A stretch of DNA of 64,000 nucleotides from the NCBI RefSeq assembly GCF_902726645.1, contig NZ_CACVAO010000001.1:2960764-3024763 (forward strand). The letters run 5' to 3'. The position numbers were made by a program, and so were the translations under genes. Under the pieces are notes generated by a model. It made no database searches. It was not told the origin of the DNA and saw nothing but the letters and a program-made list of their open reading frames with translations. Each line of letters starts with the position of its first letter. Position 1 is the stretch's first letter. Source of the stretch: Halobacillus ihumii (GTDB lineage: Bacteria > Bacillota > Bacilli > Bacillales > Halobacillaceae). Shown piece by piece: positions 2,514 through 16,861 of the stretch.

Positions 2514-2558
2514 AGCCTCACAGCTGTCTTGAAAAGGATGGCTTGTGAGGCTTTTTTT
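2514..2558. terminator. Bidirectional terminator between betA and the LacI gene
   Basis: A 9-bp perfect stem (AGCCTCACA / TGTGAGGCT) with a 21-nt loop is followed by seven T on the plus strand; A-rich sequence upstream would serve the minus-strand gene that ends at 2557. Confidence 0.75.
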
Positions 2559-3591
2559 ATAACTTTTTCGGAAACGACTGCGTTTTGTACTTTGAACCCT
2601 GGACAGTCCTTGTGGTAGGAATAATAACCTGGCGGCCCGTTGCATCTTCGTTTTTAATAATTTTGAACAGATGTTTTGTTGCCGTTTCTCCAAGCTCGTC
2701 TGTTGGGTTTTCGATCTGGATGATAGATGGAAATAAGAAAGATGTAATCTCTGTATTACTGTAGCCTCCGATAAGAATATCCGATGGTGTCGAAATACCA
2801 TGCTCATCTAAATTCTTATACAAGCTAAGCAGTTTCAGGTCATCTGTAGCAAAAATGGCAGTCGGAAGTCCTTGCCGATCGAAAAGCTGCTGGGAATTTT
2901 GATAAGCTTCGTTCATGGTAAAACCACAGTTGATCATAAGATCATCTCGAACTGGAAGATTGTTATCTTTGAGACATTGCACATAACCCTCTAATCGATC
3001 AATCGACACATGATAATCTTGTGGAGAATACAGGCAGGCAATATCTTTATGCCCTAAATCAATCATATATTGGACAAGGTTATAACTGTCTAAAAAGTTA
3101 TTGGTATCAACAGAGTAGATGTTTTTATACTCTCCAACTACCTTCCCGATCACAATCGTTGGAATGTTAAATTTATCGATTTCTTTAAAATAATCTTCAT
3201 CAGAAGGAGAGCTAAGCATAATGATGCCTTTTACAATTTTGGAAGCTGTTTTGGCTATACAGCGTTTGATTTCTTCCACATCATTCTGAGAGGTTTGGAG
3301 AATGACATCATAATCTTCCTCCTCAGAAAATCTCGATATGACGTGAAGGATCTCAGAGAAGAACGGGTTGTTCTTTGTTGTTGTCGTTGAACGAGAAACG
3401 ACAAGAATAGCATCGAAGCCCGAAGAAAGCCCCCGTGCAATTTTGCTTGGCTGGTAGTTCAACTCTTCAATCGCCTTTTGTACTTTCTCTTTACTTTTAG
3501 CAGATATATTAGGATTATTATTTAAGACTCTGGATACAGTAGACTTTGATACATTCGCCGCTTTTGCTATATCGTAGATCGTCGGATTCAT
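2557..3591 (-). CDS. LacI-family transcriptional regulator of the glycoside operon
   Basis: 344 residues. The N-terminal helix-turn-helix (TIYDIAKAANVSKSTVSRVL, residues 4-23) and hinge helix (~50-57) are standard for LacI/GalR, followed by a periplasmic-binding-protein-like sugar sensor domain with the typical IFATDDL stretch. It lies divergent from, and 336 bp upstream of, an ABC transporter and glycoside-phosphorylase operon, as YcjW does relative to the ycj cluster of E. coli. Two similar palindromes with a central CCG in the intergenic region (3611-3622 and 3838-3849) are plausible operators, one positioned for autoregulation. The inducer is unknown; an alpha-glucoside or related disaccharide is expected from the operon. 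Confidence 0.85.
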   Translation of the reverse strand: MNPTIYDIAKAANVSKSTVSRVLNNNPNISAKSKEKVQKAIEELNYQPSKIARGLSSGFDAILVVSRSTTTTKNNPFFSEILHVISRFSEEEDYDVILQTSQNDVEEIKRCIAKTASKIVKGIIMLSSPSDEDYFKEIDKFNIPTIVIGKVVGEYKNIYSVDTNNFLDSYNLVQYMIDLGHKDIACLYSPQDYHVSIDRLEGYVQCLKDNNLPVRDDLMINCGFTMNEAYQNSQQLFDRQGLPTAIFATDDLKLLSLYKNLDEHGISTPSDILIGGYSNTEITSFLFPSIIQIENPTDELGETATKHLFKIIKNEDATGRQVIIPTTRTVQGSKYKTQSFPKKL

Positions 3592-3610
3592 CGTGATTCA
3601 CCTCACTTTT

Positions 3611-3622
3611 GGTACCGGTTCC
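3611..3622. promoter_or_regulatory. Putative LacI-family operator 1
   Basis: GGTACCGGTTCC is a near-perfect palindrome 20 bp upstream of the regulator start codon. It shares the pattern GGKACCGSTYCC with the site at 3838-3849, which supports it as the operator of the adjacent LacI protein. This is inference from sequence only. Confidence 0.5.
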
Positions 3623-3765
3623 ATTTTATAGTACCAAATATATTAAAATATGTCATTCGATAAATTTTTTCTGAAATTTTTTGAAAAGGAAAAACACTTC
3701 GGATCAGGCAGGGATTATGATGGTTTAAGTTTGCATAAAATAAGGGTTTTGAATGAAAGGTTATG

Positions 3766-3795
3766 TTGACAGCAAAACAAAAGGTATATTATGAT
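3766..3795 (+). promoter_or_regulatory. SigA promoter of the glycoside operon
   Basis: TTGACA at 3766-3771 and TATGAT at 3790-3795 are separated by 18 nt. Transcription would begin near 3802, so the leader is ~125 nt and carries both the cre-like site and operator 2. Confidence 0.65.
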
Positions 3796-3804
3796 CTTCA
3801 CAAA

Positions 3805-3818
3805 TGGTAGCGCTGTCA
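3805..3818 (+). promoter_or_regulatory. cre-like site at the operon transcription start
   Basis: TGGTAGCGCTGTCA fits the CcpA consensus TGWAARCGYTWNCW at 11 of 14 positions and sits right at the predicted +1, a repressing position. A second LacI-type operator is the alternative reading. Confidence 0.5.
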
Positions 3819-3837
3819 AACTTTTTTGAAAACATTT

Positions 3838-3849
3838 GGGACCGCTCCC
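3838..3849. promoter_or_regulatory. Putative LacI-family operator 2
   Basis: GGGACCGCTCCC has GGGA/TCCC half sites and shares the GGKACCGSTYCC pattern with operator 1. It lies ~40 nt downstream of the predicted start site and 79 bp before the binding-protein start codon. Confidence 0.45.
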
Positions 3850-3927
3850 TAAAAGTTCGTTAAATGATAAAAACGACATGGATTCCTTATGGGTAAAGGA
3901 AACAAAAACTATTCGGGAGGCTGACAC

Positions 3928-5223
3928 ATGAATCGAAAATGGTTTGGAATAATGGCTTTCATTATAATGTCTATAGCTGTAGTCGGCTGCTCTAGCGAAA
4001 CCCAGTCAAAGGGTGGGGAAGTAACCATTGAATTTATGCATACTTCTGTAGAGCAGGAACGCCTAAAGGTAGTAAATGGATTAATAGAAGAATTTGAGGA
4101 GGTCAATCCTAACATCAATATTGATCCCGTGGTCGTTGAGGAAGGCAGCATGTCGACCAAAATCATTACCTTAGCTCAGGCAAGCGAGTTACCAGAGGTT
4201 ATTGAGGTGGGGCAGCAGCATGCAAAGATGCTGGATAGAAATGCTCTTGTCGATACGGAAGCTTTGAAAAGCGTCATTCGTGACATTGGGAAAGACGAGT
4301 ATTTTGACGGGGCATTGCGACTCGTACGTACAGAGGATGGGGAAGGTTTTAGAGGCATCCCGATCAGCGGGTGGGTACAAGGCATATGGTACAACAAAGA
4401 AATGCTAGCTTCCAAAGGTTTTGATGAACCACAGAACTGGGAGGAGCTGCTTGAGGTTGCGAAGGCATTTACGGATAAGGCTAATCAGAAGTATGGGATT
4501 GCCATGCCGACTGCAGAGGCCGGAATGTCAGAGCAAGCCTTCTCACAGTTTGCCCTTTCCAATAAAGCCAACATCTTAAATGCTAATGGTGAAATCACGC
4601 TGAACACTCCCGAGATGAAAGAAGCGTTGAAGTATTATAAGAAACTATCGCAATATACGATGCCAGGCTCAAATGGTGTCACTGAGGTAAGAGATGCGTT
4701 CATGAATGGTACAGCCCCAATGGCGATCTATTCTACGTACATTATGCCCGCTGTTTACGCTCAAGGCGATCCTAGTAATCTAGGGTTTGCGATTCCGAAA
4801 AAAGAACAAGAAGCTGTCTTTGGAACAGTTAGTTCTTTAACAATTCCAACGGGGTTAAAAGAACAGCAGAAAGAAGCGGCGCAAAAGTTCATAAAATTCC
4901 TGTCCAAAACCGAAAATGCGACCGAGTGGATTCTCATGGCTCCAGGCGGGGCGCAGCCAGTCCATAAAAGTGTCGTAGCAAGTGAAACCTATCAATCTAA
5001 TAAAGTCATTAATGCCTTTGGTGATTTATCTACCGAGATTGCCGAATCCTTTAATGAAATTCAAGTATTCGGTTTAGTAGGAGATAAGAACTTCGTGAAA
5101 ATGGGCCAAATTTCAAGCTCCAATGCGATCCCTATCATGGTCAACCGCGTAACCGTTGGTGATGCTAGCGTTGAAGAAGGGATAAATGCAGCCCAGGAAC
5201 AGTTGGAGAAGGTTATTGAATAA
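3928..5223 (+). CDS. ABC transporter sugar-binding lipoprotein (YcjN-like)
   Basis: 431 residues. A lipoprotein signal peptide ends in the lipobox VVGC with the acylated Cys at residue 21, so the mature protein is anchored outside the membrane. The rest is a family 1 extracellular solute-binding protein (CUT1 sugar type), with features such as GWVQGIWYNKEML and an internal FMNGTAPMAIYS segment. It is the first gene of the operon and is followed by two permeases. In the E. coli ycj cluster the equivalent is YcjN. The ligand is not known; a disaccharide or glucosyl osmolyte that feeds the downstream phosphorylases is inferred. Confidence 0.85.
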   Translation: MNRKWFGIMAFIIMSIAVVGCSSETQSKGGEVTIEFMHTSVEQERLKVVNGLIEEFEEVNPNINIDPVVVEEGSMSTKIITLAQASELPEVIEVGQQHAKMLDRNALVDTEALKSVIRDIGKDEYFDGALRLVRTEDGEGFRGIPISGWVQGIWYNKEMLASKGFDEPQNWEELLEVAKAFTDKANQKYGIAMPTAEAGMSEQAFSQFALSNKANILNANGEITLNTPEMKEALKYYKKLSQYTMPGSNGVTEVRDAFMNGTAPMAIYSTYIMPAVYAQGDPSNLGFAIPKKEQEAVFGTVSSLTIPTGLKEQQKEAAQKFIKFLSKTENATEWILMAPGGAQPVHKSVVASETYQSNKVINAFGDLSTEIAESFNEIQVFGLVGDKNFVKMGQISSSNAIPIMVNRVTVGDASVEEGINAAQEQLEKVIE

Positions 5224-5302
5224 ATACTATTGCAATAGCTAGCTGCGGGACATTGGTTTCTGCAGCCAGAATTAAACCTTGTTTAGAAAGGTGGTCCCTA
5301 TA

Positions 5303-6184
5303 TTGTTTAAGGTCAAACGAGAAACGTCAGATGGAAAGTTAGCCTTGATTTTATTGTTGCCAAGCTCGCTTTTAATTTTATTGCTAATTGGCTACCCTAT
5401 GCTCTCTAACTTCTATATCAGTTTTTTTGAGCAGCCTATTAACCCTGAGTTTCCTGCAAAGTTTGTAGGGTTTGAAAACTACATAGAAACATTGACGAAT
5501 ATTGATTTTTATAAATCACTTGGCATTACTCTTCTTTACACCTTTTTGGTCGTTGTGGGGAGTACAGCCCTGGGTCTTTATGTAGCCATCATGTTTAATC
5601 GCCCATTTCGATTTAGGAAGGTTGCCCGTTCCCTGATCATTTTATCTTATGTCACTCCGTCCATTTCCCTGATCTTTGTATGGAAATATATGTTCAACAG
5701 TGGATACGGCATCATTAATTATATTGGCAGAGATATTTTGCATCTTTTTGATCGGGCACCTCTCTGGTTTGATGATCCTACCAGTGCTTTCATTCTTGTT
5801 GTGTTGTTTGCGATTTGGAGGTACTTTCCTTACGCCTTTATCGCGTTCTTGGCCATTCTGCAAACGATATCACCTACGTTATATGAAGCAGCCGAAATGG
5901 ATGGCGCAAATATTTGGCAAAAGTTTAAAGCCGTTACGTTACCTGCCATTATGCCGGTCATGCTTACGGTGATCACGCTAAGAACGATTTGGATGTTCTA
6001 TATGTTTGAGGACGTTTATCTATTAACAAATAAAGTGAATGTACTAGGAGTCTATTTATATGAAACCGCATTTGCCTTTAATGACTTAGGGAAAGCATCA
6101 GCGATTTCTGTCATCCTATTCTTAGTGATTAGTACATTAATTATTGCTATTAGGAAGAAGGTGAACTTAAATGCCAGCAGTTAA
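5303..6184 (+). CDS. ABC transporter permease 1 (YcjO-like)
   Basis: 293 residues with six predicted membrane segments and the EAA loop (YEAAEMDGANIWQKFKAVTL) that contacts the ATPase; CUT1 sugar permease of the MalF/UgpA type. The start chosen is TTG at 5303, eight nt after AAAGGTGG; a TTG at 5279 in the same frame has no ribosome site. A 79-bp gap after the binding-protein gene contains a small GCTGC/GCAGC hairpin, a frequent place for 3'-end stabilisation of the more abundant binding-protein mRNA. It overlaps the next permease by 14 bp. No ATPase gene is present in the operon. Confidence 0.85.
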   Translation: MFKVKRETSDGKLALILLLPSSLLILLLIGYPMLSNFYISFFEQPINPEFPAKFVGFENYIETLTNIDFYKSLGITLLYTFLVVVGSTALGLYVAIMFNRPFRFRKVARSLIILSYVTPSISLIFVWKYMFNSGYGIINYIGRDILHLFDRAPLWFDDPTSAFILVVLFAIWRYFPYAFIAFLAILQTISPTLYEAAEMDGANIWQKFKAVTLPAIMPVMLTVITLRTIWMFYMFEDVYLLTNKVNVLGVYLYETAFAFNDLGKASAISVILFLVISTLIIAIRKKVNLNASS

Positions 6185-7025
6185 GACAAGATCATCGAAA
6201 ATGGCCAGAAGAGCTTCCTTTTATTTCGGGGTAATCGCCCTGTTATGCATTTGCTTGTTTCCTTTCTTTATCATGCTGATGACGGCATTTAAAGGTTCCG
6301 AGGAAGCCATTTCAAGAAACCCGACTTTTTTCCCGAAGGATTGGACGCTCCAGCATTTTATTGACATCTTTAATCCAGCGATCTTTCCATACCTTCATTA
6401 TTTACAGAACAGTTTTATTGTTTCCGTAACTGCATCTGTCATCTCTGTCGGGATTGCGATATTCGGAGCTTATGCCCTTTCAAGACTGAACTTCAGAGGG
6501 CGCCTGGCGATCAATGCCAGCTTCTACACCGTTTATATGTTCTCAGGCATTCTGTTAGTTGTTCCATTGTTTAAAGTGATTGCCGGCCTGGGTTTATACG
6601 ATACAAAAACATCACTCATTATCGTGATGATTGTTCAGACTTTGCCGACAGCCATATTGATGCTGAACAGCTATTTTGAAACGATTCCTAAAGATTTAGA
6701 GGAAGCGGCCAAAATAGATGGATTAAATCGAATTAAGGTGATTTTCTATATCATCATTCCGCTCTCTTTTACAGGGATTGTTTCAGTGTTTGTTTATTGC
6801 TTTATGGTCGCTTGGAATGATTTCCTCTTCGCTTCGATTTTCTTCTCAGGCGCAGAGAATTTCACATTACCTGTAGGGTTATATGCCTTATTTAATACCC
6901 CTGATTACGTTTGGGGTAGAATGATGGCCGCGTCGATAATTACCGCACTGCCTGTCGTCATTATGTATGCGATATCAGAGAACTTAATTAAAGGAAACGT
7001 AACAGATGGAGGGGTTAAAGGATGA
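6171..7025 (+). CDS. ABC transporter permease 2 (YcjP-like)
   Basis: 284 residues, MalG/UgpE-type inner-membrane permease with about six hydrophobic segments and the EAA motif EEAAKIDGLNRIKVIFYIII. It begins inside the end of permease 1 and its stop overlaps the ATG of the next gene (ATGA), so the genes are translationally coupled. As usual for CUT1 importers of Bacillaceae, energy is probably supplied by a shared MsmX-type ATPase encoded elsewhere; this is inference. Confidence 0.85.
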   Translation: MPAVKTRSSKMARRASFYFGVIALLCICLFPFFIMLMTAFKGSEEAISRNPTFFPKDWTLQHFIDIFNPAIFPYLHYLQNSFIVSVTASVISVGIAIFGAYALSRLNFRGRLAINASFYTVYMFSGILLVVPLFKVIAGLGLYDTKTSLIIVMIVQTLPTAILMLNSYFETIPKDLEEAAKIDGLNRIKVIFYIIIPLSFTGIVSVFVYCFMVAWNDFLFASIFFSGAENFTLPVGLYALFNTPDYVWGRMMAASIITALPVVIMYAISENLIKGNVTDGGVKG

Positions 7026-8098
7026 TTCAAAATAAAGAACAAATTAAAACACTTGTCGCTACAAAACCACGAGAAGCAGCTTTACTGGATGTGGAGGCAC
7101 CGCACCTAGGGGAAGAAGAAGTGAAAATTAAAGTTGAATTTTCAGCCCCGAAACACGGCACGGAGGTCGTCGACTTTCGAGGAATTACTCCGTTCATGGA
7201 TGAAGAGTTTTCAGAGGAGTGGAGAAGCTTTGTTCCAAGAGAAGATACCTCGGAAAAAGGAATTGTGTTCGGTGAGTTCAAGCTAGGAAATATGATCGTC
7301 GGGGAAATCGTAGAAACAGGCCATAAGGTGACGGATGTTTCGGTAGGAGATCGTGTCTGTACGTATGGACCAATCTCTGAGTACGTCATTGTGAATGCTA
7401 GTAACAACCATAGACTATTAAAAATGCCGGAGCACGGGAAATGGCAAAATGCGGTGTGTTATGACCCTGCCCAGTTTGCACTTGGCGCAGTGAGAGATGC
7501 TCATATTAGACCAGGGGACTGTGTCGCTATTTCGGGCTTAGGAGCGATTGGTCAAATTGCGATTCAACTCGTGAAAAAAATGGGAGCCAGCTTAGTGATA
7601 GGTGTCGATCCGATTGAACATCGAAGAGAGATTGCTAGAGAAGGAGGGGCTGATGTCTGCCTTGATCCAACGAGCTGCGACGCCGGTTTTGAAGTAAAAA
7701 AACTGACGGATAAACAGGGTGTAGATGCCTGGGTCGAGACAAGCGGGATCAGTAGTGCCCTCCAGGATGCTTTGAAAGGAACTGGTTATGCTGGGACGAT
7801 CTCCTATATCGCATTTGCTAAGCCTTTTCCAGAGGGGCTCAATTTTGGACGGGAAGCCCATTTCAACAATGCCAATCTTGTGTTCTCAAGGGTGGGAAGT
7901 GAACCAAATCGTGACTATCCGCGCTGGGATCGGAAGCGGATCGAACGAACGTGCTGGCAGTTACTCATGAACGGTCATCTGGACTGTGAAAAAATAATTG
8001 ATCCGGTTGTAAGCTTTGAAGATAGTGCAGAGGCTTATATGAAATATGTCGATCAATCACCGAACCTTAGTATTAAGCTTGGAGTCCAACACGGATAA
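7022..8098 (+). CDS. ycjQ: 3-keto-guloside dehydrogenase-like MDR oxidoreductase (YcjQ orthologue)
   Basis: 358 residues, medium-chain dehydrogenase/reductase with the Rossmann motif GLGAIGQIAIQL. Segments APKHGTEVVDFRG, AVCYDPAQFA, LNFGREAHFNNA and SEPNRDYPRW agree with my memory of E. coli YcjQ, which was shown to interconvert D-gulosides and 3-keto-D-gulosides with NAD(H). In place of the usual CGVCGSD zinc-ligand stretch the protein has SAPKHGTEVVD, so the classical catalytic zinc Cys is absent. It overlaps the permease gene by 4 bp and precedes ycjR and ycjS. The exact glycoside used by this organism is unknown. Confidence 0.85.
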   Translation: MIQNKEQIKTLVATKPREAALLDVEAPHLGEEEVKIKVEFSAPKHGTEVVDFRGITPFMDEEFSEEWRSFVPREDTSEKGIVFGEFKLGNMIVGEIVETGHKVTDVSVGDRVCTYGPISEYVIVNASNNHRLLKMPEHGKWQNAVCYDPAQFALGAVRDAHIRPGDCVAISGLGAIGQIAIQLVKKMGASLVIGVDPIEHRREIAREGGADVCLDPTSCDAGFEVKKLTDKQGVDAWVETSGISSALQDALKGTGYAGTISYIAFAKPFPEGLNFGREAHFNNANLVFSRVGSEPNRDYPRWDRKRIERTCWQLLMNGHLDCEKIIDPVVSFEDSAEAYMKYVDQSPNLSIKLGVQHG

Positions 8099-8114
8099 AG
8101 AAAGGATGAAGACT

Positions 8115-8912
8115 ATGAAACTCGCAACGCAAAATCAGAGCTTTTTTCCTGAAGCGATCAGCGAGAAATTTCAGTACATTAAAGAGCTCGGCTTTGACGC
8201 GTTTGAGATAGACGGAAAGCTATTAGTGGATCATAAAGAGGAAATTAAAAAGGCCATCGATGAAACAGGCGTTGTCGTCAATGCCGCTTGCGGAGGATAT
8301 GACGGCTGGATTGGTGATTTCTCAGAAGAGAAACGTCAAAATGGGTTAGAGGAAATCACGGAAATCTTAAAAGCTCTTCAATATGTAGGAGGAAAAGGAA
8401 TTGTCGTTCCAGCAGCCTGGGGAATGTTTACGTACCGCTTACCGCCAATGGAGTCACCGCGAAGCCAGGAAGAGGACTGGAAGACAGTTAGTGATTCCCT
8501 GCTTTATTTAGAAAAAGCAGCAGAGGAAACAGGCACAACGATTTTTCTCGAACCACTAAACCGTTATCAAGATCATATGATCAATACGATTGCCGATGCT
8601 AGAGCCTATATTGAAGAGAATGGGTTGCAGCACACAAAGATCATTGGTGACTTTTATCATATGAACATTGAAGAGGACAGTCTCATCGGATCATTGCACG
8701 CCAATCGGGACTTAATCAAACATATTCATATCGCGGATAACCACCGCTACCAGCCAGGAACCGGCTCGATTGATTTCGAGGAATGCTATGCTCAGCTTCG
8801 TGACGACAACTATGCAGGCTATGTAACGATTGAGGGCCGGATCAGAGGCGAGCATCAGGAAGAAGCGTATAAGAAATCGATCGCTTATCTAAAGTCATTA
8901 CTGAATAGCTGA
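8115..8912 (+). CDS. ycjR: 3-ketoglycoside C4-epimerase-like TIM-barrel protein (YcjR orthologue)
   Basis: 265 residues, AP-endonuclease-2/xylose-isomerase-like TIM barrel. ACGGYDGWIGDF, GKGIVVPAAWGMFTYRLPPM, LEPLNRYQDHM and GDFYHMNIEE are metal- and substrate-binding stretches that match remembered E. coli YcjR, a C4 epimerase converting 3-keto-gulosides to 3-keto-glucosides. The ATG at 8115 (MKLATQNQ) is preceded by AAAGG at 9 nt and coincides with the start of the E. coli protein; an upstream in-frame ATG at 8046 lies within ycjQ and is unlikely. It sits between the two dehydrogenases of the same pathway. Confidence 0.85.
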   Translation: MKLATQNQSFFPEAISEKFQYIKELGFDAFEIDGKLLVDHKEEIKKAIDETGVVVNAACGGYDGWIGDFSEEKRQNGLEEITEILKALQYVGGKGIVVPAAWGMFTYRLPPMESPRSQEEDWKTVSDSLLYLEKAAEETGTTIFLEPLNRYQDHMINTIADARAYIEENGLQHTKIIGDFYHMNIEEDSLIGSLHANRDLIKHIHIADNHRYQPGTGSIDFEECYAQLRDDNYAGYVTIEGRIRGEHQEEAYKKSIAYLKSLLNS

Positions 8913-8925
8913 AGGAGGGTATCCA

Positions 8926-9969
8926 TTGAAAACAATGAGGGTCGCGATCATTGGTGGCGGGGATGTAGCCGAGAAGAAACACCTTCCGAATTACCGGAGT
9001 TATGAAGGTGTTGAAGTCGTTGCTGTACTGAACAGAAGGGAAGAGAAGGCTCGTTCATTCGCTGAGCGCAATCAAGTTGCCCATGGCTACACTGACCTGG
9101 AAGAAATGCTAAGTACGGAAAAGCCGGATATCGTCAGTGTTTGTACGCCAAATAAATATCATTACCAACATGTGATGGAAGCTCTGAAAGCAAATTGTCA
9201 TGTGCTTTGTGAGAAACCTCCGAGTATCGCTGCTTCTGAGGCTAAAGAAATGAATGACCTAGCGAAAGAGAAAAACTTGGTGCTGGCTTATAACTTTCAA
9301 CATCGTTTCTCAGAGGAAACAGCTATGCTGCGTAACAAAGTTCAAGAAGGAGTGCTTGGTGACATCTATTACGCCAAGCTCTCTGCTTTAAGAAGGTCCG
9401 GCGTACCAGGCTGGGGGAATTTTATTAGCAAAGACCTCCAGGGGGGCGGCCCATTAATCGATATAGGCATACATATGCTGGATAGCGCGTTTTTCATCAT
9501 GGGATTTCCAGAAGTGAAGAAGGTATCCGCGAACATGTTTCAGAAGATTGGCCCGTATAAATCGGAAGGTTCTTTTGGAAAATGGAATCCTGAAAAATAT
9601 GAGGTAGAAGACTCGCTGTTTGGCACGATTGAACTGAAGAATGGCGGCTTGATTCAAATTGACACTTCCTTTGCGCTTCATATGAAGCAAACGAAAAAGA
9701 TGAATATCGAGTTTGCTGGAGATCAAGCGGGTGCCACCTTGTACCCTTTAGAAATTTATACAGATGAGAAGGGTGAACTCGTAACTTTGTTTGAAAAAGG
9801 CCCTGCCGATACAGATGACCGTGAACGACTTTCGATTCATTCTTTTATTCAAAAATGCTTAGGATCACAGGAAGAATGGATTACAAACGGTGCTGAAGGG
9901 TATGAAATTCAGAAACTTGTTGAGGCGTTATACAGATCTGCTGAAATAGGAGAGAGTATTTATTTATGA
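8926..9969 (+). CDS. ycjS: 3-keto-glucoside dehydrogenase-like Gfo/Idh/MocA oxidoreductase (YcjS orthologue)
   Basis: 347 residues starting with TTG behind GGAGGG. The N-terminal NAD-binding fold shows VAIIGGGDVAEKKHLPNY, the family EKP motif occurs as LCEKPPS (~98), and GGGPLIDIGIHMLD (~168-181) is the substrate-domain signature with the catalytic-type His. In E. coli YcjS reduces 3-keto-glucosides with NADH and can oxidise glucosides at C3. With YcjQ and YcjR it would convert D-gulosides to D-glucosides. The gene overlaps the following GH65 gene by 4 bp, coupling the pathway to phosphorolysis. Confidence 0.82.
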   Translation: MKTMRVAIIGGGDVAEKKHLPNYRSYEGVEVVAVLNRREEKARSFAERNQVAHGYTDLEEMLSTEKPDIVSVCTPNKYHYQHVMEALKANCHVLCEKPPSIAASEAKEMNDLAKEKNLVLAYNFQHRFSEETAMLRNKVQEGVLGDIYYAKLSALRRSGVPGWGNFISKDLQGGGPLIDIGIHMLDSAFFIMGFPEVKKVSANMFQKIGPYKSEGSFGKWNPEKYEVEDSLFGTIELKNGGLIQIDTSFALHMKQTKKMNIEFAGDQAGATLYPLEIYTDEKGELVTLFEKGPADTDDRERLSIHSFIQKCLGSQEEWITNGAEGYEIQKLVEALYRSAEIGESIYL

Positions 9970-12215
9970 GGAATTTGAAGCTTTCCGAAGATCAATTTGA
10001 TCTCAAAAAAATAAACAAATATGCGACGCTCATGACGCTAGGTAATGGATACATGGGAATTCGGGGTGCGCATGAAGAAGACTACCCGATTCAAAAGCGT
10101 GGGTTATTTGTCGCAGGCATTTATAACAATTCGAGCATAGAAGAACCCGAGGAAATAGTGAACCTTCCAGATGTCATGGGGATGGACCTAGAAATTGATG
10201 GAGAAGTCTTTTCTTCATTGAAGGGAAAAACAATTTCTTATGACCGAACCCTTCACATGGACAAAGGAGAACTTACAAAGGATGTGGTCTGGGAAAGAGA
10301 AGATGGATTACGTCTGCAATTTACGTTTCGCAGACTAGCAGCTAAACATGATATCCATGTATTAGCTTCAAAAGTGGGTATTGAAAGTTTGAATAGAGAC
10401 GTCACCATTACGATCAGGACAGGCATTGATGCGCAGCAAACGAACTTTGGCCGCCAGCATTTGCTGGAAGATCATGTTCAAGTCCATGACGAAACCTATA
10501 TGCAAGGTACGTACACAACAACACGATCCCATCAAACCATTGGCTTATTCTCGACATGCACCTATTCAAAGAGCTGTGATGTCCATTTTTTTGCAAAAAA
10601 CCGCCAGCTGCTATGTGAATCTACAGCTGCATTAAAGAGAAACGAACCGTTTCATATGGAAAAACTCAATGCGGTGTACACGAGTATTGATCAAAAAGTT
10701 GATGAGTTAAATGATATCGGCTTAGCGAAGGTAAAACAGTTATCGAAAGAAGGCTATGAACAGATCCTACAACAATCAGAAGGTGCCTGGGAGGATTTCT
10801 GGAAAGAACGGCGAATTGAGATCCATTCCAGCAAACCTATGGATCAGCAGGCGATTGATTTTGCCCGGTATCACTTGGAGATTATGGCTCCGAAGCATAA
10901 CCCTAATCTCAGTGTGGCGGCTAAAGGGTTAACAGGTGAAGGCTATAAAGGGCATGTTTTCTGGGATGCGGAAATTTTTGTCTTACCTTATCATCTTTAC
11001 AATGATCCAAAGGCAGCTAAACAATTGCTGGAATACCGGTATAACAGGCTGCCAGAAGCCAGAGAGCGAGCGAAGGCAAATGGACATGAGGGGGCTCAGT
11101 TCCCGTGGGAGAGCGCACGGACAGGCAAGGAAGAAACACCTGCTTATGCTGCGATCAATATAAAAACCGGCGAAAGGCAAAAAGTAGCCTCAGCCTTAGC
11201 GGAGCATCATATTGTCGCTGATATCGCCTATGCTGTGCTTCGTTATTATCAAGCAACTGATGATCAGGAGTTCATGGCAGCGAAAGGGTTAACGATGCTT
11301 GAAGAAACGAGCAAGTTTTGGCTGAGCCGCACATCAGAACGTGACGGCCAACTGCACCTGTTAAACGTCATCGGGCCAGATGAATATACAGAGTTTATTG
11401 ATAACAATGCTTATACGAATTACATGGCCCATTATATTGTAAAACAAACGCTGCACGTATTGGATAAGTTCAACGAGCTGGATATAGAATTTCAAAAGTC
11501 AGCGGAAGATTTTCTGAACCGGTTGTATTTACCGAAGGAGAATGCTGACCAACTGATTCCCCAGGATGATACATTTTTAGGAAAACCTGCAATTGACTTA
11601 ACTAAATATAAAGAGAACCAAGGCAGCCAGTCGATCTTGCTTGATTACTCCAGAGGCGAAGTAAACGAGATGCAAATCTTGAAGCAAGCGGATGTCGTAA
11701 TGCTGTTGTATCTTTTCCCAGATTTATTCTCTAAAGAGGTCGTCGAGAAGAATTTCAGCTATTATGAAGATAAAACGATCCATGATTCTTCCTTAAGTAA
11801 AGCGATTCATTCCATTTTGGCGATGAGATGTGATCAGGAGGAACTGGCTTACCAGCTCTTCCAGGAAGCGTGCTTAATTGATCTTGGACCGAACCCTCAC
11901 TCTTCAGATGAAGGGATTCATGCGGCATCATTAGGTTCCATCTGGTTGGCCGTCTTTAGTTTCTTGAATCTATCGTTTGAACAGGAAGGAATTAAACTGA
12001 ATCCTACACTTCCTGCAGCATGGTCTTCCTTTAAACTGCCCTTCCATTATAAAGGCAGAGAAATTACGGTGGAGATGGATCAGAATACGTTATGTATTGA
12101 GAAAGTTGGGGGAGACCCGATTGATATCGAAATCGGGAAGCAACATTATCGTTTTATCGATCATCTTGAAATTCCCTTGCATAAGGATAATAAATTTTAC
12201 AAAGAAAGGACTTAA
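9966..12215 (+). CDS. ycjT: Glycoside hydrolase family 65 disaccharide phosphorylase (YcjT-like)
   Basis: 749 residues, the usual length for GH65. It phosphorolyses an alpha-glucoside with inversion to beta-glucose 1-phosphate. The N-terminal beta-sandwich begins with TLGNGYMGIRG; the (alpha/alpha)6 barrel has GHVFWDAEIFVLPY and the catalytic acid Glu473 in IGPDEYTEFIDNNAYTN; the phosphate-binding region is HSSDEGIHAASLGSIW. E. coli YcjT in the equivalent position is a kojibiose phosphorylase. Family members also act on maltose, trehalose, nigerose or glucosylglycerol, so specificity is open; PDEYTE instead of the common PDEYHE may matter. The beta-phosphoglucomutase immediately downstream fits the product. 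Confidence 0.85.
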   Translation: MRNLKLSEDQFDLKKINKYATLMTLGNGYMGIRGAHEEDYPIQKRGLFVAGIYNNSSIEEPEEIVNLPDVMGMDLEIDGEVFSSLKGKTISYDRTLHMDKGELTKDVVWEREDGLRLQFTFRRLAAKHDIHVLASKVGIESLNRDVTITIRTGIDAQQTNFGRQHLLEDHVQVHDETYMQGTYTTTRSHQTIGLFSTCTYSKSCDVHFFAKNRQLLCESTAALKRNEPFHMEKLNAVYTSIDQKVDELNDIGLAKVKQLSKEGYEQILQQSEGAWEDFWKERRIEIHSSKPMDQQAIDFARYHLEIMAPKHNPNLSVAAKGLTGEGYKGHVFWDAEIFVLPYHLYNDPKAAKQLLEYRYNRLPEARERAKANGHEGAQFPWESARTGKEETPAYAAINIKTGERQKVASALAEHHIVADIAYAVLRYYQATDDQEFMAAKGLTMLEETSKFWLSRTSERDGQLHLLNVIGPDEYTEFIDNNAYTNYMAHYIVKQTLHVLDKFNELDIEFQKSAEDFLNRLYLPKENADQLIPQDDTFLGKPAIDLTKYKENQGSQSILLDYSRGEVNEMQILKQADVVMLLYLFPDLFSKEVVEKNFSYYEDKTIHDSSLSKAIHSILAMRCDQEELAYQLFQEACLIDLGPNPHSSDEGIHAASLGSIWLAVFSFLNLSFEQEGIKLNPTLPAAWSSFKLPFHYKGREITVEMDQNTLCIEKVGGDPIDIEIGKQHYRFIDHLEIPLHKDNKFYKERT

Positions 12216-12218
12216 TCG

Positions 12219-12887
12219 ATGAACTCACAACACATAGAAGCCGTCGTTTTTGATCTGGATGGGGTGATAACCGATACTGCCCATTATCATTATTTAGCTT
12301 GGAAGCAGCTGGCCGATGAATTAGGGATTCCTTTTGACGAAAGCTTTAATGAAAACCTTAAAGGTGTAAGCCGGGTTGATTCACTGAAATTGATTCTAGC
12401 GCATGGAAATCAGTCAGACGCTTATACGGATTCAGAAATAGAAGATCTAGCTAGCCAGAAAAATGAGTTCTATAAACAGTTAATCCAACAGCTTACTCCA
12501 GAGGACATTTTACCCGGCATAAAAGAACTTATTGAAGAGATTAGAAGTGAATCCATCCCTGTTGGGTTAGCTTCAGTATCAAAAAATGCCAAAACCGTCC
12601 TGCATGCCTTGGAAATCGAGCACTTATTTGATTACTGTGCGGATGCAGCTAAAATTAAGCAATCGAAACCAGATCCGGAAATTTTCCTAACTGAATGTGA
12701 AGCACTGGGAGCAGACCCTAAGCACTCCATTGGGGTTGAAGATGCAAAGGTTGGGGTTCAGTCGATCCAAGCGAGCAGCATGTTTGCGGTAGGTGTGGGA
12801 TCTTATCTGGACCAAGCGGATTTGATGGTAAACGATACAACAGAGCTTTCCTGGAAACAAATAAAGCGTGCTTATTTACATCAATAG
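12219..12887 (+). CDS. pgmB: Beta-phosphoglucomutase
   Basis: 222 residues, HAD superfamily. It converts beta-glucose 1-phosphate made by the GH65 phosphorylase to glucose 6-phosphate. The nucleophile and acid/base are Asp12 and Asp14 (FDLDGVITDTA), followed by the PGM-specific WKQLADELG cap region, KGVSR, the SVSKN motif II, Lys in KQSKPDPEIF and the metal site GVEDAKVGVQS. Its ATG lies three bases after the GH65 stop, with AAAGAAAGG upstream. Equivalent to YcjU of E. coli. Very confident. Confidence 0.92.
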   Translation: MNSQHIEAVVFDLDGVITDTAHYHYLAWKQLADELGIPFDESFNENLKGVSRVDSLKLILAHGNQSDAYTDSEIEDLASQKNEFYKQLIQQLTPEDILPGIKELIEEIRSESIPVGLASVSKNAKTVLHALEIEHLFDYCADAAKIKQSKPDPEIFLTECEALGADPKHSIGVEDAKVGVQSIQASSMFAVGVGSYLDQADLMVNDTTELSWKQIKRAYLHQ

Positions 12888-12905
12888 TAAAGGGGGGGGA
12901 CTTCT

Positions 12906-14597
12906 ATGAAAGACGAACTCATCGATCAAATTGCCCATCATCTTGAAGACATTTATGGCAAGAGGGATGACGAGGTGATCAATACATTTCAAGAGCTGAT
13001 GGAACAGTGGTCCAAAAAAGAGTGGACGACCCCAGCTGCGCCGACAGAACAGAATATTTATCTCATTACATATGGTGATAGCATATACGAAGAGGGGAAA
13101 CCAACTCTCCCGACATTGCACCAATTTTTGAAGGAAGAAGTCGACGGCATCATTACGGATGTTCATCTCTTACCAATGTTCCCTTACACTTCGGATGATG
13201 GCTTTTCCGTAAGTGACTATAGAAAGATTCATCCAGAGTTAGGGGACTGGAGTGACATTCAGAACTTTTCCAAGTATTATCGGCTGATGTTTGATTTTGT
13301 AGCCAACCATATGTCGCAATCCAGCGAATGGTTTCAAAAGTATCTTGATGATGATCCGACGTATAAAGACTTCTTTATCCCTAAAGATCCAGAGTTTAAT
13401 AGTGAGCATGTAGTCAGACCTAGAACCTCGCCACTCTATCATGAGTACGGCACGGAAGGGAAAACAGCCTGGACAACCTTTAGTAAGGATCAGGTAGACG
13501 TTAACTTTGCGAATCCTGATGTGCTAATGGAAATGACAGATATCCTGCTTTCTTATGCCCATCAAGGCGCAACCAGTATCCGGTTGGATGCGATCGGCTT
13601 TATATGGAAGGAATCAGGCACATCCTGCATTCACTTGCCACAGGCTCATGCCATTATTCAATTATGGAATACGGTCATGAATGCCTTTCAGCCGAATACC
13701 CAGATCATTACAGAGACGAACGTTCCCCATGAAGAAAATATAAGCTACTTTGGAAGCGGAACGAATGAAGCGAACATGGTGTACCAGTTTACGCTGCCTC
13801 CGCTCGTTCTTTATAGTTTTATGAAGCATGATGCATCAAAGCTAACCCAATGGGCTCAAACCATTGAACCCGTATCAGAAGAAGCAACTTACTTTAACTT
13901 CCTGGCCAGTCATGATGGCATAGGCATGCGCCCTACAGAAGGATTGTTGAATGAAGACGAAAAGCAAGAGCTCGTCGATCAAGTAAAAGCAAATGGCGGA
14001 GATGTTTCGTATAAAAGTAATCCAGATGGAAGCCAATCTGTCTATGAGCTAAACATCAACTATTCGGAAGCCTTAAAGAATAAGGAAGAAGACCTTACCG
14101 TAGAAGATGAAGTACAAAAGATGCTAGCAGCCCATTCCGTTCTACTATCCGTCATCGGCGTACCCGCTATTTACTATCATTCCTTATTAGGATCAAAAAA
14201 TGATGAGGGAGGTATGACAGAGTCAGGCATTCCACGACGAATCAATAGAGAAAAGCTAAGTGTTGATACGATTCGTGAAGAACTCCAAACGGATCCGCGT
14301 CGGTCTGGCATTTTTAAAGGGCTTCAAGAAATGATAGAGATTCGTAAAAAAGAAGCAGCCTTTTCACCATATGCCGACCAAGAAGTACTCGATTTAGATC
14401 TGCGCCTTTTTGCCTTAAAGAGAATGGATCCTAATTCAGGGGAGGAAGTTTTCTTTGTTGTTAACACGTCAAAAGGAGAGGTCGAAGTAGCGATACCATT
14501 TAACGGAACGGACTTATTCCATGATAAGAAAGTAGAAGGTTCCGTTGTTCTTTCAGGTTATGGATATATGTGGGTTAAGAAAGAGGGAGACCATTAA
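12906..14597 (+). CDS. ycjM: GH13 subfamily 18 glucoside phosphorylase (sucrose-phosphorylase-like, YcjM-like)
   Basis: 563 residues. A retaining phosphorylase releasing alpha-glucose 1-phosphate is predicted. GH13 regions are visible: DFVANH (region I), IRLDAIGF with nucleophile Asp228, ITETN with acid/base Glu270, and SHDGIGMRP with His336-Asp337. The GIGMRP loop and overall layout are those of subfamily 18, which includes sucrose, sucrose 6-phosphate, glucosylglycerate and glucosylglycerol phosphorylases; E. coli YcjM is a glucosylglycerate phosphorylase. In a halophile a glucosylglycerate or glucosylglycerol substrate is attractive but unproven. AAGGGGGGGG precedes the ATG. It is last in the operon, whereas ycjM is first in E. 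coli. Confidence 0.8.
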   Translation: MKDELIDQIAHHLEDIYGKRDDEVINTFQELMEQWSKKEWTTPAAPTEQNIYLITYGDSIYEEGKPTLPTLHQFLKEEVDGIITDVHLLPMFPYTSDDGFSVSDYRKIHPELGDWSDIQNFSKYYRLMFDFVANHMSQSSEWFQKYLDDDPTYKDFFIPKDPEFNSEHVVRPRTSPLYHEYGTEGKTAWTTFSKDQVDVNFANPDVLMEMTDILLSYAHQGATSIRLDAIGFIWKESGTSCIHLPQAHAIIQLWNTVMNAFQPNTQIITETNVPHEENISYFGSGTNEANMVYQFTLPPLVLYSFMKHDASKLTQWAQTIEPVSEEATYFNFLASHDGIGMRPTEGLLNEDEKQELVDQVKANGGDVSYKSNPDGSQSVYELNINYSEALKNKEEDLTVEDEVQKMLAAHSVLLSVIGVPAIYYHSLLGSKNDEGGMTESGIPRRINREKLSVDTIREELQTDPRRSGIFKGLQEMIEIRKKEAAFSPYADQEVLDLDLRLFALKRMDPNSGEEVFFVVNTSKGEVEVAIPFNGTDLFHDKKVEGSVVLSGYGYMWVKKEGDH

Positions 14598-14750: not shown

Positions 14751-16844
14751 TTATGCATACTCAAGGTTCTGCTCATAAGACTGTTTTATCAAGTCCATTA
14801 CTAATTCAGGATCGATATTAGGTGTTACTTTTATCTCTAGTTCGCCATTACCCCGATGTCCAATGTTGGATACATCTTTCGTTAAATGATTAGGATCATG
14901 TAAACTATTTGCCTTCACATTTAACCACAGCTTTAAATGAGCTTTCGCAGGCTCTAAATCAACAAAGTTGTGTCCGTCTGTTTTATAAGCAATATAATAC
15001 TTTTTAAATTCTTCAGTTATACTGGTGTCTAAATTTAATATTTTCATTTTTAATTTTTCATAGATTGCAAGGGTATCTGAACTGAAGGTATCCTCATGGT
15101 ACCTTAATGTGTATCCCTGGTCTGCTTCACTTGGGTCATTTACTCGGTATTTGGCTAATTCTTCTTCACTTAAGTTAGCATATGGCCATATTTGCAAAGC
15201 TCTCCCAGCTAGAATATCAGCTCTTTCTTTAATTGCTGACTCGTCCCACTTTCTACAATTAGCTAAACTACGATTCAGCCATAGTGGACTATCGTTGAAT
15301 CCGCCTTTAAGCTTGGACTTTTCTTCAAAAGAACGGTCGCTTAACTCTGAATTATAACCGGTTAGGGTTAAGTTACCTAGAGTATGAAGGTATTCTTCCT
15401 TGATCTGCTTCCAATCCGGGCCAAGTTCATTTTGCCATGCATCGGACACATTCTTATTCTGGGGCACAATGTGTTCAATGGTATAATTTTCTACGTTAAT
15501 TGGTTCTTTTCTGTTAAAGTTCTCAAGTTTTCGTAATAGGGTGTTACGACTCCTGAAATTATAAACATCCTTCATGACTAACTTGCGTTTAAATTCCTCG
15601 TCAGAAGGAAACCGTCGATAGCCTGTTCGTAACAGCAACGCAGCTTTAATACTCTTAGTATATTCCTCGGAATTAACTTCTCTGATTAATGAAGCAAACG
15701 TCTTGTTAAGAGAATTAGTAGGGATACCACATATTGCTCTACGGAAGACATAGCTGATTACGAGTTCTAATACTTCTGAAAATCCATCCCTATTAAGAAG
15801 GTTACATGTGTAATCCTCATACACTTTGAGAAGAAATGGATATGACACATCTACTTTCAGACTGCGGATCTCTTTAAAGTACCGTTCAAGTAAAGGATCA
15901 TCGTCATGGAAAGTTAAATTAATATAGTAATTGCCATATTTAAATACGTCTTCGATGACTTCCTCAATTGAATCATGAGAATTTTGCTGGACATAACTTT
16001 TGAAAGCTTCGTAGACAACCCCTAATTTTGGTATGGTACCTGTTTTAAGGGTAAGATAATCACGTATAAACCGATCAAAGTAGCGAGTATCTTCTAAATG
16101 TCCAAATCTTTTCTCAAGTTTATACCAATAATTTTTGTATAGTCTCTTCTGGTCCTTTTCTTCTAACCCCATTAAAAAGTAATTTCGAATTAAATCGGCC
16201 TGGGAAAGGTCCAGCCCCGTAGAGTTTAAGCTTTCAAATATCAATTGAGGGTTATCCTTATCTCTGTCTAAAGAAATGTCTACCATAATTAATTTACTAA
16301 TTCCCTCATAGATCTCGTCTAAGGATAAGTCACTCTTTTTCATGGTTTCTTTAAAGAATCCATGATTTTCTACGACTCTATTAGAATGGCCCTTGTCCAG
16401 ATCTCTTCTTTCCAATATGTCAATATAAGTGTTTCTATCTTTTTGCGTCAAAAGAAGTTTATAATGGTCTTCATCTTCTTCATCAGAGTTTAACAAATAA
16501 TAGTTTCTTGCTTTTTTAGCTGTGATCAAAGAAGATTCCTTTTCATTCTCCTCCATCAATTCCGAGAAAGCAGAAAGTATTAGACTGAGGGTAGTTAAAC
16601 GCTGCTGCCCATCGATAACTAATAATCTTGGAACAGAAGTAACATGGTAAAGGCCTTTCTCTACATAAACTACAGATCCCATAAAGTGCCCTGATAAACT
16701 CTCGTCCTCTGCAGCTCGCACAATATCCTGCCAAAGTTGTTCGCACTGTTTCTTCGTCCAACTATATGTACGTTGATAAATAGGAATAACAAATTGCTTG
16801 GGTCCTTTTAGAAATTGTAACAAGTTCGTTTCTGTTGCTTTCAT
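14751..16844 (-). CDS. GmrSD-like DUF262/DUF1524 protein, probable antiphage nuclease
   Basis: 697 residues from ATG 16844, which has GGAGTGG upstream (a GTG at 16853 is a longer alternative). The N-terminal DUF262 (GmrS-like) domain shows IPIYQRTYSW (20-29), the ParB-like NTPase motif DGQQRLTTL (78-86) and FESLNSTGLDLSQADLIRNY. A DUF1524 (GmrD-like) HNH domain follows with IEHIVPQN (His458) and the LGNLTLTGYNSELSDRSFEEK region split around 500. The C-terminal ~110 residues resemble a DUF5655 nucleic-acid-binding module. GmrSD is a type IV restriction enzyme for modified phage DNA. No other restriction or mobility gene is adjacent; an AT-rich 500-bp spacer lies upstream. Confidence 0.78.
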   Translation of the reverse strand: MKATETNLLQFLKGPKQFVIPIYQRTYSWTKKQCEQLWQDIVRAAEDESLSGHFMGSVVYVEKGLYHVTSVPRLLVIDGQQRLTTLSLILSAFSELMEENEKESSLITAKKARNYYLLNSDEEDEDHYKLLLTQKDRNTYIDILERRDLDKGHSNRVVENHGFFKETMKKSDLSLDEIYEGISKLIMVDISLDRDKDNPQLIFESLNSTGLDLSQADLIRNYFLMGLEEKDQKRLYKNYWYKLEKRFGHLEDTRYFDRFIRDYLTLKTGTIPKLGVVYEAFKSYVQQNSHDSIEEVIEDVFKYGNYYINLTFHDDDPLLERYFKEIRSLKVDVSYPFLLKVYEDYTCNLLNRDGFSEVLELVISYVFRRAICGIPTNSLNKTFASLIREVNSEEYTKSIKAALLLRTGYRRFPSDEEFKRKLVMKDVYNFRSRNTLLRKLENFNRKEPINVENYTIEHIVPQNKNVSDAWQNELGPDWKQIKEEYLHTLGNLTLTGYNSELSDRSFEEKSKLKGGFNDSPLWLNRSLANCRKWDESAIKERADILAGRALQIWPYANLSEEELAKYRVNDPSEADQGYTLRYHEDTFSSDTLAIYEKLKMKILNLDTSITEEFKKYYIAYKTDGHNFVDLEPAKAHLKLWLNVKANSLHDPNHLTKDVSNIGHRGNGELEIKVTPNIDPELVMDLIKQSYEQNLEYA

Positions 16845-16861
16845 TTGAACCACTCCATAAG

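Follow-up and report, generated by a model that had tools for sequence, protein, structure and literature searches.

A complete ycj-type operon in Halobacillus ihumii, and a clue from its relatives to a possible glycerate-linked substrate

The activities of the ycj enzymes of Escherichia coli are known in vitro; no physiological substrate is established in the accessible part of PMC11543891, where a ligand screen of the binding protein YcjN found no ligand either. In published tables (PMC8950772, accessible part), kojibiose is given as the substrate of E. coli YcjT and glucosylglycerate, separately, as that of YcjM. It has been reported that kojibiose disrupts binding of YcjW to DNA in vitro, and that E. 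coli does not grow with kojibiose as sole carbon source (PMC6599011, accessible part). Gram-positive copies of the ycj genes have already been noted in the literature. The operon described here, from a probable halophile, is of this known kind, and its relatives hint at the diet of ycj operons: a sugar joined to glycerate. The exchange of its GH13_18 gene and the linkage of related clusters to glycerate kinase are the points corrected or added.

In this study, a complete ycj-type operon was found at positions 2557-14597 of the window (the whole 64-kb stretch of Halobacillus ihumii DNA analysed), where all ten genes named in the preliminary description were present. In BLASTP comparison with the ten E. 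coli K-12 ycj proteins, the namesake was the best match for each window protein (41-69% identity), and Pfam and NCBIfam assignments agreed with the expected ycj families. The features are:

2557..3591, minus strand: LacI-family repressor, YcjW ortholog (52% identity to E. coli YcjW; LacI domain)
3610..3623, plus strand: YcjW-type operator-like site 1, TGGTACCGGTTCCA (2 mismatches to TGGGASCGSTCCCA)
3805..3818, plus strand: YcjW-type operator-like site 2, TGGTAGCGCTGTCA (3 mismatches to TGGGASCGSTCCCA; the weakest of the three)
3837..3850, plus strand: YcjW-type operator-like site 3, TGGGACCGCTCCCT (1 mismatch to TGGGASCGSTCCCA)
3928..5223, plus strand: ABC sugar-binding protein, YcjN ortholog (50%; SBP_bac_1)
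5279..6184, plus strand: ABC permease, YcjO ortholog, TTG start (68%)
6171..7025, plus strand: ABC permease, YcjP ortholog (66%)
7022..8098, plus strand: YcjQ ortholog, predicted guloside 3-dehydrogenase of the ADH family (64%; activity from the E. coli annotation)
8115..8912, plus strand: YcjR ortholog, predicted 3-keto-glycoside C4-epimerase (69%)
8926..9969, plus strand: YcjS ortholog, predicted glucoside 3-dehydrogenase, Gfo/Idh/MocA family, TTG start (52%)
9966..12215, plus strand: GH65 phosphorylase, YcjT ortholog, kojibiose-type with altered loop 3 (47% over 728 aa)
12219..12887, plus strand: beta-phosphoglucomutase, YcjU ortholog (49%; TIGR01990 272.7 bits, cut-off 189.4)
12906..14597, plus strand: GH13_18, predicted glucosylglycerate-phosphorylase type, xenolog replacing YcjM (motifs, tree, AU test)

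Gene content and one-to-one orthology agree with the earlier proposal that a single E. coli ycj-type operon serves import, epimerisation and phosphorolysis. The YcjQ, YcjR and YcjS orthologs are contiguous in this order; the high YcjQ and YcjR identities put forward in the preliminary description are real (64 and 69%), and with YcjS at 52% the low identity named as a refuting outcome did not occur. Nor do the phosphorylases appear to be of sucrose or trehalose type: GH65 carries the kojibiose residues EEAP and GH13_18 the glucosylglycerate signatures. A halophilic host fits, the nearest GH13_18 being that of Halobacillus naozhouensis (93%). The operon does lack an ATPase gene, as had been noted, but this is no difference from E. 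coli K-12, whose ycjV carries a pseudogene annotation. In each of four related genomes, one UgpC-type ATPase above the family cut-off was found away from the cluster. Although the YcjR open reading frame had been listed with a start at 8046, its true start is probably 8115, where the alignment to E. coli YcjR begins. The protein scored 411 bits to 6wn6 ("3-keto-D-glucoside 4-epimerase"), and four putative metal-site residues, which we take to be metal ligands, were kept in 93 of 93 sequences. Conversion of D-gulosides to D-glucosides in the window is predicted by analogy, carried over from published E. coli enzymology via annotation and summary. Beside the operon lie genes for a GMC oxidoreductase and for an aldehyde dehydrogenase whose type presumably serves betaine synthesis.

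The E. coli K-12 locus, ycjMNOPQRSTU(V)-ompG / ycjW, shares with the window nine orthologs and a GH13_18 family member, the identical N-O-P-Q-R-S-T-U order, a conserved operator sequence and the lack of an intact ATPase gene. In contrast to E. coli, the window has a GH13_18 of another lineage at its 3' end, no ompG, and a divergent repressor gene upstream. Three predicted YcjW-type operators precede the operon. The operator pattern was derived from palindromes of related operons and then recovered the E. coli sites, which a strict palindrome search had missed. It was picked after the window gap had been inspected, so that the window matches are no independent test, whereas the E. coli positions are. 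Seven matches, by sequence only, were found in the window, three of them inside the 336-bp gap; 3.67 are expected in 64 kb, and seven or more were reached by 10 of 100 shuffles. Both E. coli matches coincide with the two YcjW ChIP peaks given in the accessible part of the published work, although their number (2, with 1.85 expected) is no excess over chance. Site 3 differs at 2 positions from the E. coli sites under these peaks.

The ycj block, whole or partial, was found in 80 further loci from Bacillales and enterobacteria, 30 of them in Bacillota and 50 in other groups; a complete set in a halophile is thus nothing out of the ordinary. The system is sporadic. A draw across Bacillota gave matches in 2 of 398 genomes, one being the centre genome and the other a distant match (36%), a class-wide draw in 14 of 398 (seven at 52% or more, centre included), and the Halobacillus family in 6 of 44. 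Gram-positive clusters (Listeria, Bacillus, Fictibacillus, Peribacillus and others) have the same block with a divergent LacI gene upstream; unlike the window, most have YcjM first and an adjoining glycerate kinase, often between T and U. The ten-gene layout of the window, W-N-O-P-Q-R-S-T-U-M, recurs in L083 and L135-L137, which comprise a Pseudalkalibacillus hwajinpoensis plasmid (NZ_CP156675) and Halobacillus-family copies (in L135 the repressor lies beyond the stretch fetched), with 71-89% identity between L083 and window proteins. The genes flanking the plasmid copy are unrelated to those of the window, so all ten genes can move together.

It had been suggested that the GH13_18 gene was moved to the operon end. 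Instead, another lineage replaces YcjM: the window-group proteins fall outside the YcjM clade in the tree, and their union with YcjM was rejected (AU p 4.5e-55, for test groups defined after the tree had been viewed). The window enzyme, 41% identical to YcjM by BLASTP, nests among the GH13_18 proteins of mng-like clusters of the Halobacillus family. These enzymes (EC 2.4.1.352 type) are 65-75% identical to it with the same motifs and lie beside a mannosylglycerate-type PTS and a GH38 hydrolase (best families, but below curated cut-offs); a glycerate kinase is present in five of the nine clusters. By motifs and phylogeny, the window gene is a xenolog, a predicted glucosylglycerate-phosphorylase-type lineage standing in for YcjM. 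Both signatures of such enzymes, the (T/S)ETN motif (IITETN) and the Glu in loop A (VYELN), were detected in it and in all 90 GH13_18 proteins of ycj loci, and its functional class appears to be the same as that of YcjM. Bacillus SA1-12 and Thalassobacillus represent separate exchanges. Among the halophiles, the replacement in the window group came from relatives in mannosylglycerate-type PTS/hydrolase clusters, that in Thalassobacillus from relatives in CdaR/glycerate-kinase/symporter clusters. The swap of one glucosylglycerate-phosphorylase-type enzyme for another suggests that this activity is indispensable to the pathway. The alternation RPxEG/NPxRG directly after SHDG was considered as specificity loop A and rejected: by comparison with sucrose phosphorylase we judged its position not to be that of loop A, whose YE motif is present in both types. 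It is a clade marker only.

The window GH65 has E, E, A and P at CsKP positions 64/392/394/402, the residues of kojibiose phosphorylase, and its loop 3 reads AINIKTGERQKVASA. Like CsKP (3wiq), it keeps W391 and E392 of the WET triad; T417 is replaced by Ser, as in E. coli YcjT. Among the GH65 proteins of ycj loci, which differ from CsKP in these respects, W416 is replaced by Ala in 85 of 88 and T417 by Ser in 87 of 88, and loop 3 has a 2-residue insertion with conserved Arg and Lys. Only two of 88 loci, both contig-cut, have ycjT without GH13_18. Glucosylglycerol in place of glycerate as the acceptor was considered, since B. selenitireducens has a GH65 (4ktp) that acts as glucosylglycerol phosphorylase. 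It was rejected because the window GH65 is nearer to CsKP (384 bits, vs 300 bits to 4ktp), keeps EEAP and is a YcjT ortholog (47%), and because GH13_18 has VYE, not the VGAIYQ loop published for glucosylglycerol phosphorylases.

A glycerate kinase adjoins ycj genes (within 100 bp of one on the same strand, measured between match ends) in 26 of the 30 Bacillota loci, in 16 of these between ycjT and ycjU, but in only one of the 50 others. In L. monocytogenes, PGAP annotates a glycerate kinase at the same place. Six gains or losses are needed to account for the ycj label in the phylogeny of the kinases, at least four of them forced by starred branches, and the count was unchanged after relabelling the non-adjacent L024; the linkage has thus been gained or lost at least four times. 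One reference kinase as query (E up to 1) found no match in the 64-kb window, and the three closest relatives (L135-L137) and two plasmid copies (L083, L181) likewise lack an in-cluster kinase. A glycerate kinase outside the ycj cluster was found in all six genomes tested, and three close relatives of the window have one elsewhere. Since a review already describes glycerate kinase genes as frequent companions of glucosylglycerate phosphorylases in general (PMC7178133, accessible part), the linkage may be informative about GH13_18 only. No kinase is mentioned in the JBC 2024 text, and a literature search found no paper joining any two of lmo2836, lmo2834 and "glycerate kinase".

On balance, we consider it somewhat more probable than not that this LacI-repressed, catabolic operon has a glycerate heteroside as its physiological substrate, most likely an alpha-D-gulosyl (or glucosyl) unit, alone or on alpha-(1->2)-linked glucose, joined to D-glycerate. 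The preliminary description had left the substrate as an unspecified gulose- or glucose-containing disaccharide or osmolyte; its import, epimerisation and phosphorolysis are supported, but the kinase linkage and reduced clusters make a glycerate heteroside the more likely compound. YcjN/O/P would import it using a shared ATPase. YcjQ would oxidise the gulosyl unit at C3, YcjR epimerise C4 and YcjS reduce C3, giving a glucosyl unit. GH65 would release a terminal alpha-1,2-glucosyl unit as beta-G1P for conversion by YcjU to G6P, and GH13_18 would split the remaining glucosylglycerate into alpha-G1P and glycerate, to be phosphorylated by glycerate kinase, in the window's case one from elsewhere in the genome. 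Enzyme activities are taken from the published E. coli work, while genes, orthology, operator-like sites, linkage and the YcjM replacement come from this analysis; that one imported molecule passes all steps, and in what order, we infer.

The glycerate heteroside is favoured because the kinase linkage recurs in Bacillota, because three of four reduced clusters retain the importer, Q, R and GH13_18 (L120, L156 and L158, without S, T and U; L156 with a glycerate kinase), and because GH13_18 exchanges stay among glucosylglycerate-type enzymes. It is weakened by the lack of an in-cluster kinase in the window and the five other loci named above, by the rarity of the linkage outside Bacillota, by the missing YcjS for 3-keto reduction in L120, L156 and L158, and by the response of E. 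coli YcjW to kojibiose (accessible data), which also suits a plain disaccharide. The fourth reduced cluster, L157, weakens it too, with importer, Q and R but no GH13_18, GH65 or kinase across 19.5 kb. The kinase set repeatedly beside Gram-positive ycj genes is a clue to the E. coli substrate too; with glycerate heterosides as the compounds to look for, the question can be put to a direct test. A bolder form of the proposal, which we regard as rather unlikely, is that an undescribed natural alpha-D-gulosyl-(1->2)-D-glycerate or alpha-D-gulosyl-(1->2)-alpha-D-glucosyl-(1->2)-D-glycerate exists, with the ycj operon, that of E. coli included, as its dedicated catabolic pathway and importer-Q-R-glycerate kinase-GH13_18 as the minimal form. 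Q/R(/S) would turn gulo to gluco, GH65 remove the outer glucose, and GH13_18 and glycerate kinase finish glucosylglycerate. We know of no natural gulosyl-glycerate, and no paper joining "kojibiosyl" with "glycerate" was found in the literature searched.

Alternatively, though this is doubtful, one importer and repressor may serve two substrates, a gulosyl-glucose or kojibiose-type disaccharide via Q/R/S, GH65 and beta-PGM, and glucosylglycerate via GH13_18 and glycerate kinase. The separate listing of YcjT and YcjM substrates (PMC8950772), the general company of kinase and phosphorylase (PMC7178133; both in part), the exchange of GH13_18 as a unit, its enterobacterial position at the opposite operon end from T, and Q and R without a phosphorylase in L157 are consistent with such a division. 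Against it, Q and R are retained alongside GH13_18 in three of the four reduced clusters and alongside GH65 in none; this links the epimerase with the branch that handles glycerate. A glycerate-free gulose-containing disaccharide or osmolyte, as first described, is improbable: it suits the EEAP residues and the effect of kojibiose on YcjW, but kojibiose did not support growth (PMC6599011, accessible part), and the repeated kinase linkage and the confinement of GH13_18 exchanges to glucosylglycerate-type enzymes are left unexplained. Salvage of the cell's own salt-made glucosylglycerate by GH13_18 in halophiles, the rest being incidental, suits the Halobacillus-like host and the betaine-type neighbours but is very improbable, as the importer and LacI repressor are retained in nearly all loci, pointing to uptake, and the majority of the 80 loci belong to genera that are not known to be halophilic (e.g. 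Listeria, Citrobacter, Enterobacter).

The GC content of the cluster was 42.2%, compared with 42.6% for the rest, a difference uninformative on horizontal transfer.

The operon in the window (2557-14597) consists of a divergent LacI repressor gene and nine + strand genes with short or overlapping junctions. BLASTP against the E. coli K-12 ycj set gave the namesake as top match for each window protein. The preliminary description of the gene content as E. coli ycj type was borne out, all ten proteins pairing with their namesakes at 41-69% identity:

Operon and flanking genes, in window order, with E. coli namesake and identity
108-2492 (+): aldehyde dehydrogenase (C-terminal part alone read as ORF) and GMC oxidoreductase, just 5' of the operon
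2557-14597, divergent: LacI repressor (YcjW, 52%)
+: binding protein (YcjN, 50%)
+: two permeases (YcjO, 68%; YcjP, 66%)
+: YcjQ-like (YcjQ, 64%)
+: YcjR-like (YcjR, 69%)
+: YcjS-like (YcjS, 52%)
+: GH65 (YcjT, 47%)
+: beta-phosphoglucomutase (YcjU, 49%)
+: GH13_18 (YcjM, 41%)
14751-16853 (-): GmrSD-type restriction endonuclease (GmrSD_N, GmrSD_C, DUF5655), directly 3' of the operon

The 5' flanking pair probably serves glycine-betaine synthesis. The window YcjR matched the solved 3-keto-D-glucoside 4-epimerase 6wn6, which we take to be E. coli YcjR, at 411 bits (second match, 87), and residues E146, D179, H205 and E240 (E. coli YcjR numbering), presumably the metal ligands of the fold, were conserved in 93 of 93 sequences compared. 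The GH13_18 of H. naozhouensis is 93% identical to that of the window, as would suit a Halobacillus-like host.

A glycerate heteroside would be imported and converted from the gulo to the gluco form; GH65 would then take off an alpha-1,2-glucosyl unit, and GH13_18 would split glucosylglycerate into alpha-G1P and glycerate. We lean slightly toward this glycerate-heteroside route. If YcjQ, R, S, T, M and U act as summaries and annotation of published E. coli work state, it would account for every gene, the recurrent linkage of a glycerate kinase and the choice of replacement enzymes. The main rival, in which one importer serves two substrates, is less likely. The bolder form of the glycerate-heteroside reading, with a natural gulosyl(-glucosyl)-glycerate as the substrate, is unlikely.

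A YcjR scan of one genome per species yielded 137 relatives. The best 80 among them, used for the comparison, comprised, going by record titles, 30 Bacillota, 49 Enterobacterales and one labelled Chryseobacterium. The neighborhood check in Firmicutes suggested earlier found ycj genes in the 30 Bacillota loci among these 80. Among the 82 loci comprising these 80, E. coli and the window, the order M-N-O-P-Q-R-S-T-U-w was found in 47 and w-M-N-O-P-Q-R-S-T-U in 17 (w, YcjW-type LacI gene); the remaining 18 were variants, such as L005 without T, U and W, or cut by contig ends. The cluster is sporadic in the Halobacillus family (6 of 44 genomes) and also occurs on plasmids. Gram-positive copies are already in print: Firmicutes were placed in a YcjN group with the same neighbors in the 2024 JBC study of YcjN (PMC11543891), and a Listeria study names YcjP, Q, R and S (PMC5808219). 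YcjR homologs were also found on many large Enterobacter plasmids (55 of 64 matching plasmid records; conjugative typing in 56 of 64). The locus labelled Chryseobacterium sp. 18061 (L030) carries an enterobacterial-type cluster close to that of Citrobacter sp. 18056 (L035) and is probably a mislabelled or mixed assembly. In L137, a close relative of the window (G033:C1), ycjR is apparently broken, matching in two pieces, with the genome match spanning residues 60-265 only; ycjQ of the divergent locus L160 (10448-11471) was also matched as two pieces and may be interrupted.

A glycerate kinase (PF02595/TIGR00045, checked on two representatives) was scored as linked when within 100 bp of a ycj gene on the same strand, distances being measured between match ends. 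Among the best 80 of the 137 relatives, it was linked in 26 of 30 Bacillota loci and in 1 of 50 others (Limnobaculum L072, between T and U). Its place in the 26 was between T and U (16), after T with no U following (6), after U (2) or after GH13_18 (2). The four Bacillota loci without linkage were L011, L041, L063 and L024, the last with a kinase farther away beside a CdaR-like gene. Four more divergent loci (L155, L156, L159, L160) also have the kinase, and the same gene in L. monocytogenes is annotated as glycerate kinase by NCBI. NCBI annotation of a Priestia plasmid copy of the ycj cluster shows no glycerate kinase there, and none was found in the ycj cluster of the window and its closest relatives; at least one lies outside the cluster in 6 of 6 genomes tested, three close relatives among them. 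On the kinase tree, the ycj label requires six gains or losses, at least four forced by the starred branches, with the same counts when L024 is scored as unlinked. Glucosylglycerate phosphorylases in general are often accompanied by a glycerate kinase, as already published (PMC7178133); new here is the place of the kinase within ycj clusters.

The GH13_18 gene had been described as moved to the end of the operon; it was instead exchanged. Among the loci compared, it lies 3', after T or U, in the window, Halobacillus dabanensis L004, Thalassobacillus devorans L003, Bacillus SA1-12 L041, the Pseudalkalibacillus hwajinpoensis plasmid copy L083 and L135-L137, and in divergent L155, where T and the kinase both precede it, it is 3'-terminal. 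A tree of 61 rows places the window group (window, L004, L083, L135-L137) outside YcjM, nested within GH13_18 of Halobacillus-family clusters encoding a mannosylglycerate-type PTS and GH38 (the GH38 mannosylglycerate-hydrolase-like; both best families, below curated cut-offs), 5 of 9 of which carry a glycerate kinase. L041 clusters with a Paenibacillus enzyme, and L003 joins enzymes of CdaR-like regulator/glycerate kinase/sodium symporter clusters (90-92% support). AU tests rejected union of the window group with YcjM (p 4.5e-55), with L041 and L003 (p 4.2e-54) and with L041 (p 5e-4), p-values that flatter because the groups were picked after tree inspection. A joined Q, R and T tree placed L041 with L014 and L019, which carry ordinary YcjM, and gathered the others in one halophile clade. 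Judged from these trees and tests, three separate exchanges are the simplest account. The kinases of L003 and L004 fall with the CdaR and mannosylglycerate-type clusters, respectively, matching their GH13_18. The published glucosylglycerate signatures, (T/S)ETN and the loop-A Glu, were both kept in 90 of 90 GH13_18 proteins compared. The window GH13_18 looks to be part of a ten-gene unit: in plasmid copy L083 all ten recur, with flanking genes unrelated to those of the window. L003 has no ycjU match, and combines a third GH13_18 lineage with a glycerate kinase.

Three clusters lack S, T and U: L156 (W-N-O-P-Q-R-kinase-GH13_18), L120 (W-N-O-P-Q-R-GH13_18) and L158 (W-GH13_18-N-O-P-Q-R). Only two of 88 T-bearing loci are without GH13_18, both cut by contig ends. 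Because reduced clusters keep GH13_18 without T, and T without GH13_18 is seen only in cut loci, the glycerate branch (GH13_18 and glycerate kinase) looks like the core and GH65 an extension; L157 is an exception, its N-O-P-Q-R block (9400-14316) having no GH13_18, GH65 or kinase across 19.5 kb. Farther out, L157 has a LacI gene and encodes a Gfo/Idh protein that is 35% like YcjS, and L158 has a short-chain dehydrogenase gene two genes on; no YcjS substitute was found among two annotated neighbors each of L156 and L120. L159 (9307-12513) has genes of the PEP-mutase/isocitrate-lyase, PrpF and aconitase types, and after them R- and S-like genes and a glycerate kinase. This stretch lacks Q, T and GH13_18 and fits neither the full nor the reduced cluster form; R and S would serve another purpose there.

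The window GH65 has the kojibiose residues EEAP. In these loci, loop 3 of GH65, a lining element of the acceptor site (PMC8537180), carries a two-residue insertion, with W416 replaced by Ala in 85 of 88 proteins and T417 by Ser in 87, and with an almost invariant Arg (86 of 88) and a Lys/Arg kept in all 88. These changes give a hint, and no more, of a natural acceptor other than free glucose; a carboxylate would suit.

The operator pattern TGGGASCGSTCCCA was derived from palindromes preceding related operons, with up to 3 mismatches allowed, and was chosen after the repressor-operon gap of the window had been inspected. It matched 7 times in the window (3.67 expected; 7 reached by 10 of 100 shuffles). 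The clustering of three matches in the 336-bp gap (3610, 3805 and 3837, putative operators), rather than their number, stands out. In 16.5 kb of E. coli, two matches were found against 1.85 expected, so that count is uninformative. Both are TGGGACCGCTACCA, one just before ycjM and the other at the ycjT/ycjU junction within the end of ycjT, the places to which ChIP mapped YcjW (PMC6599011).
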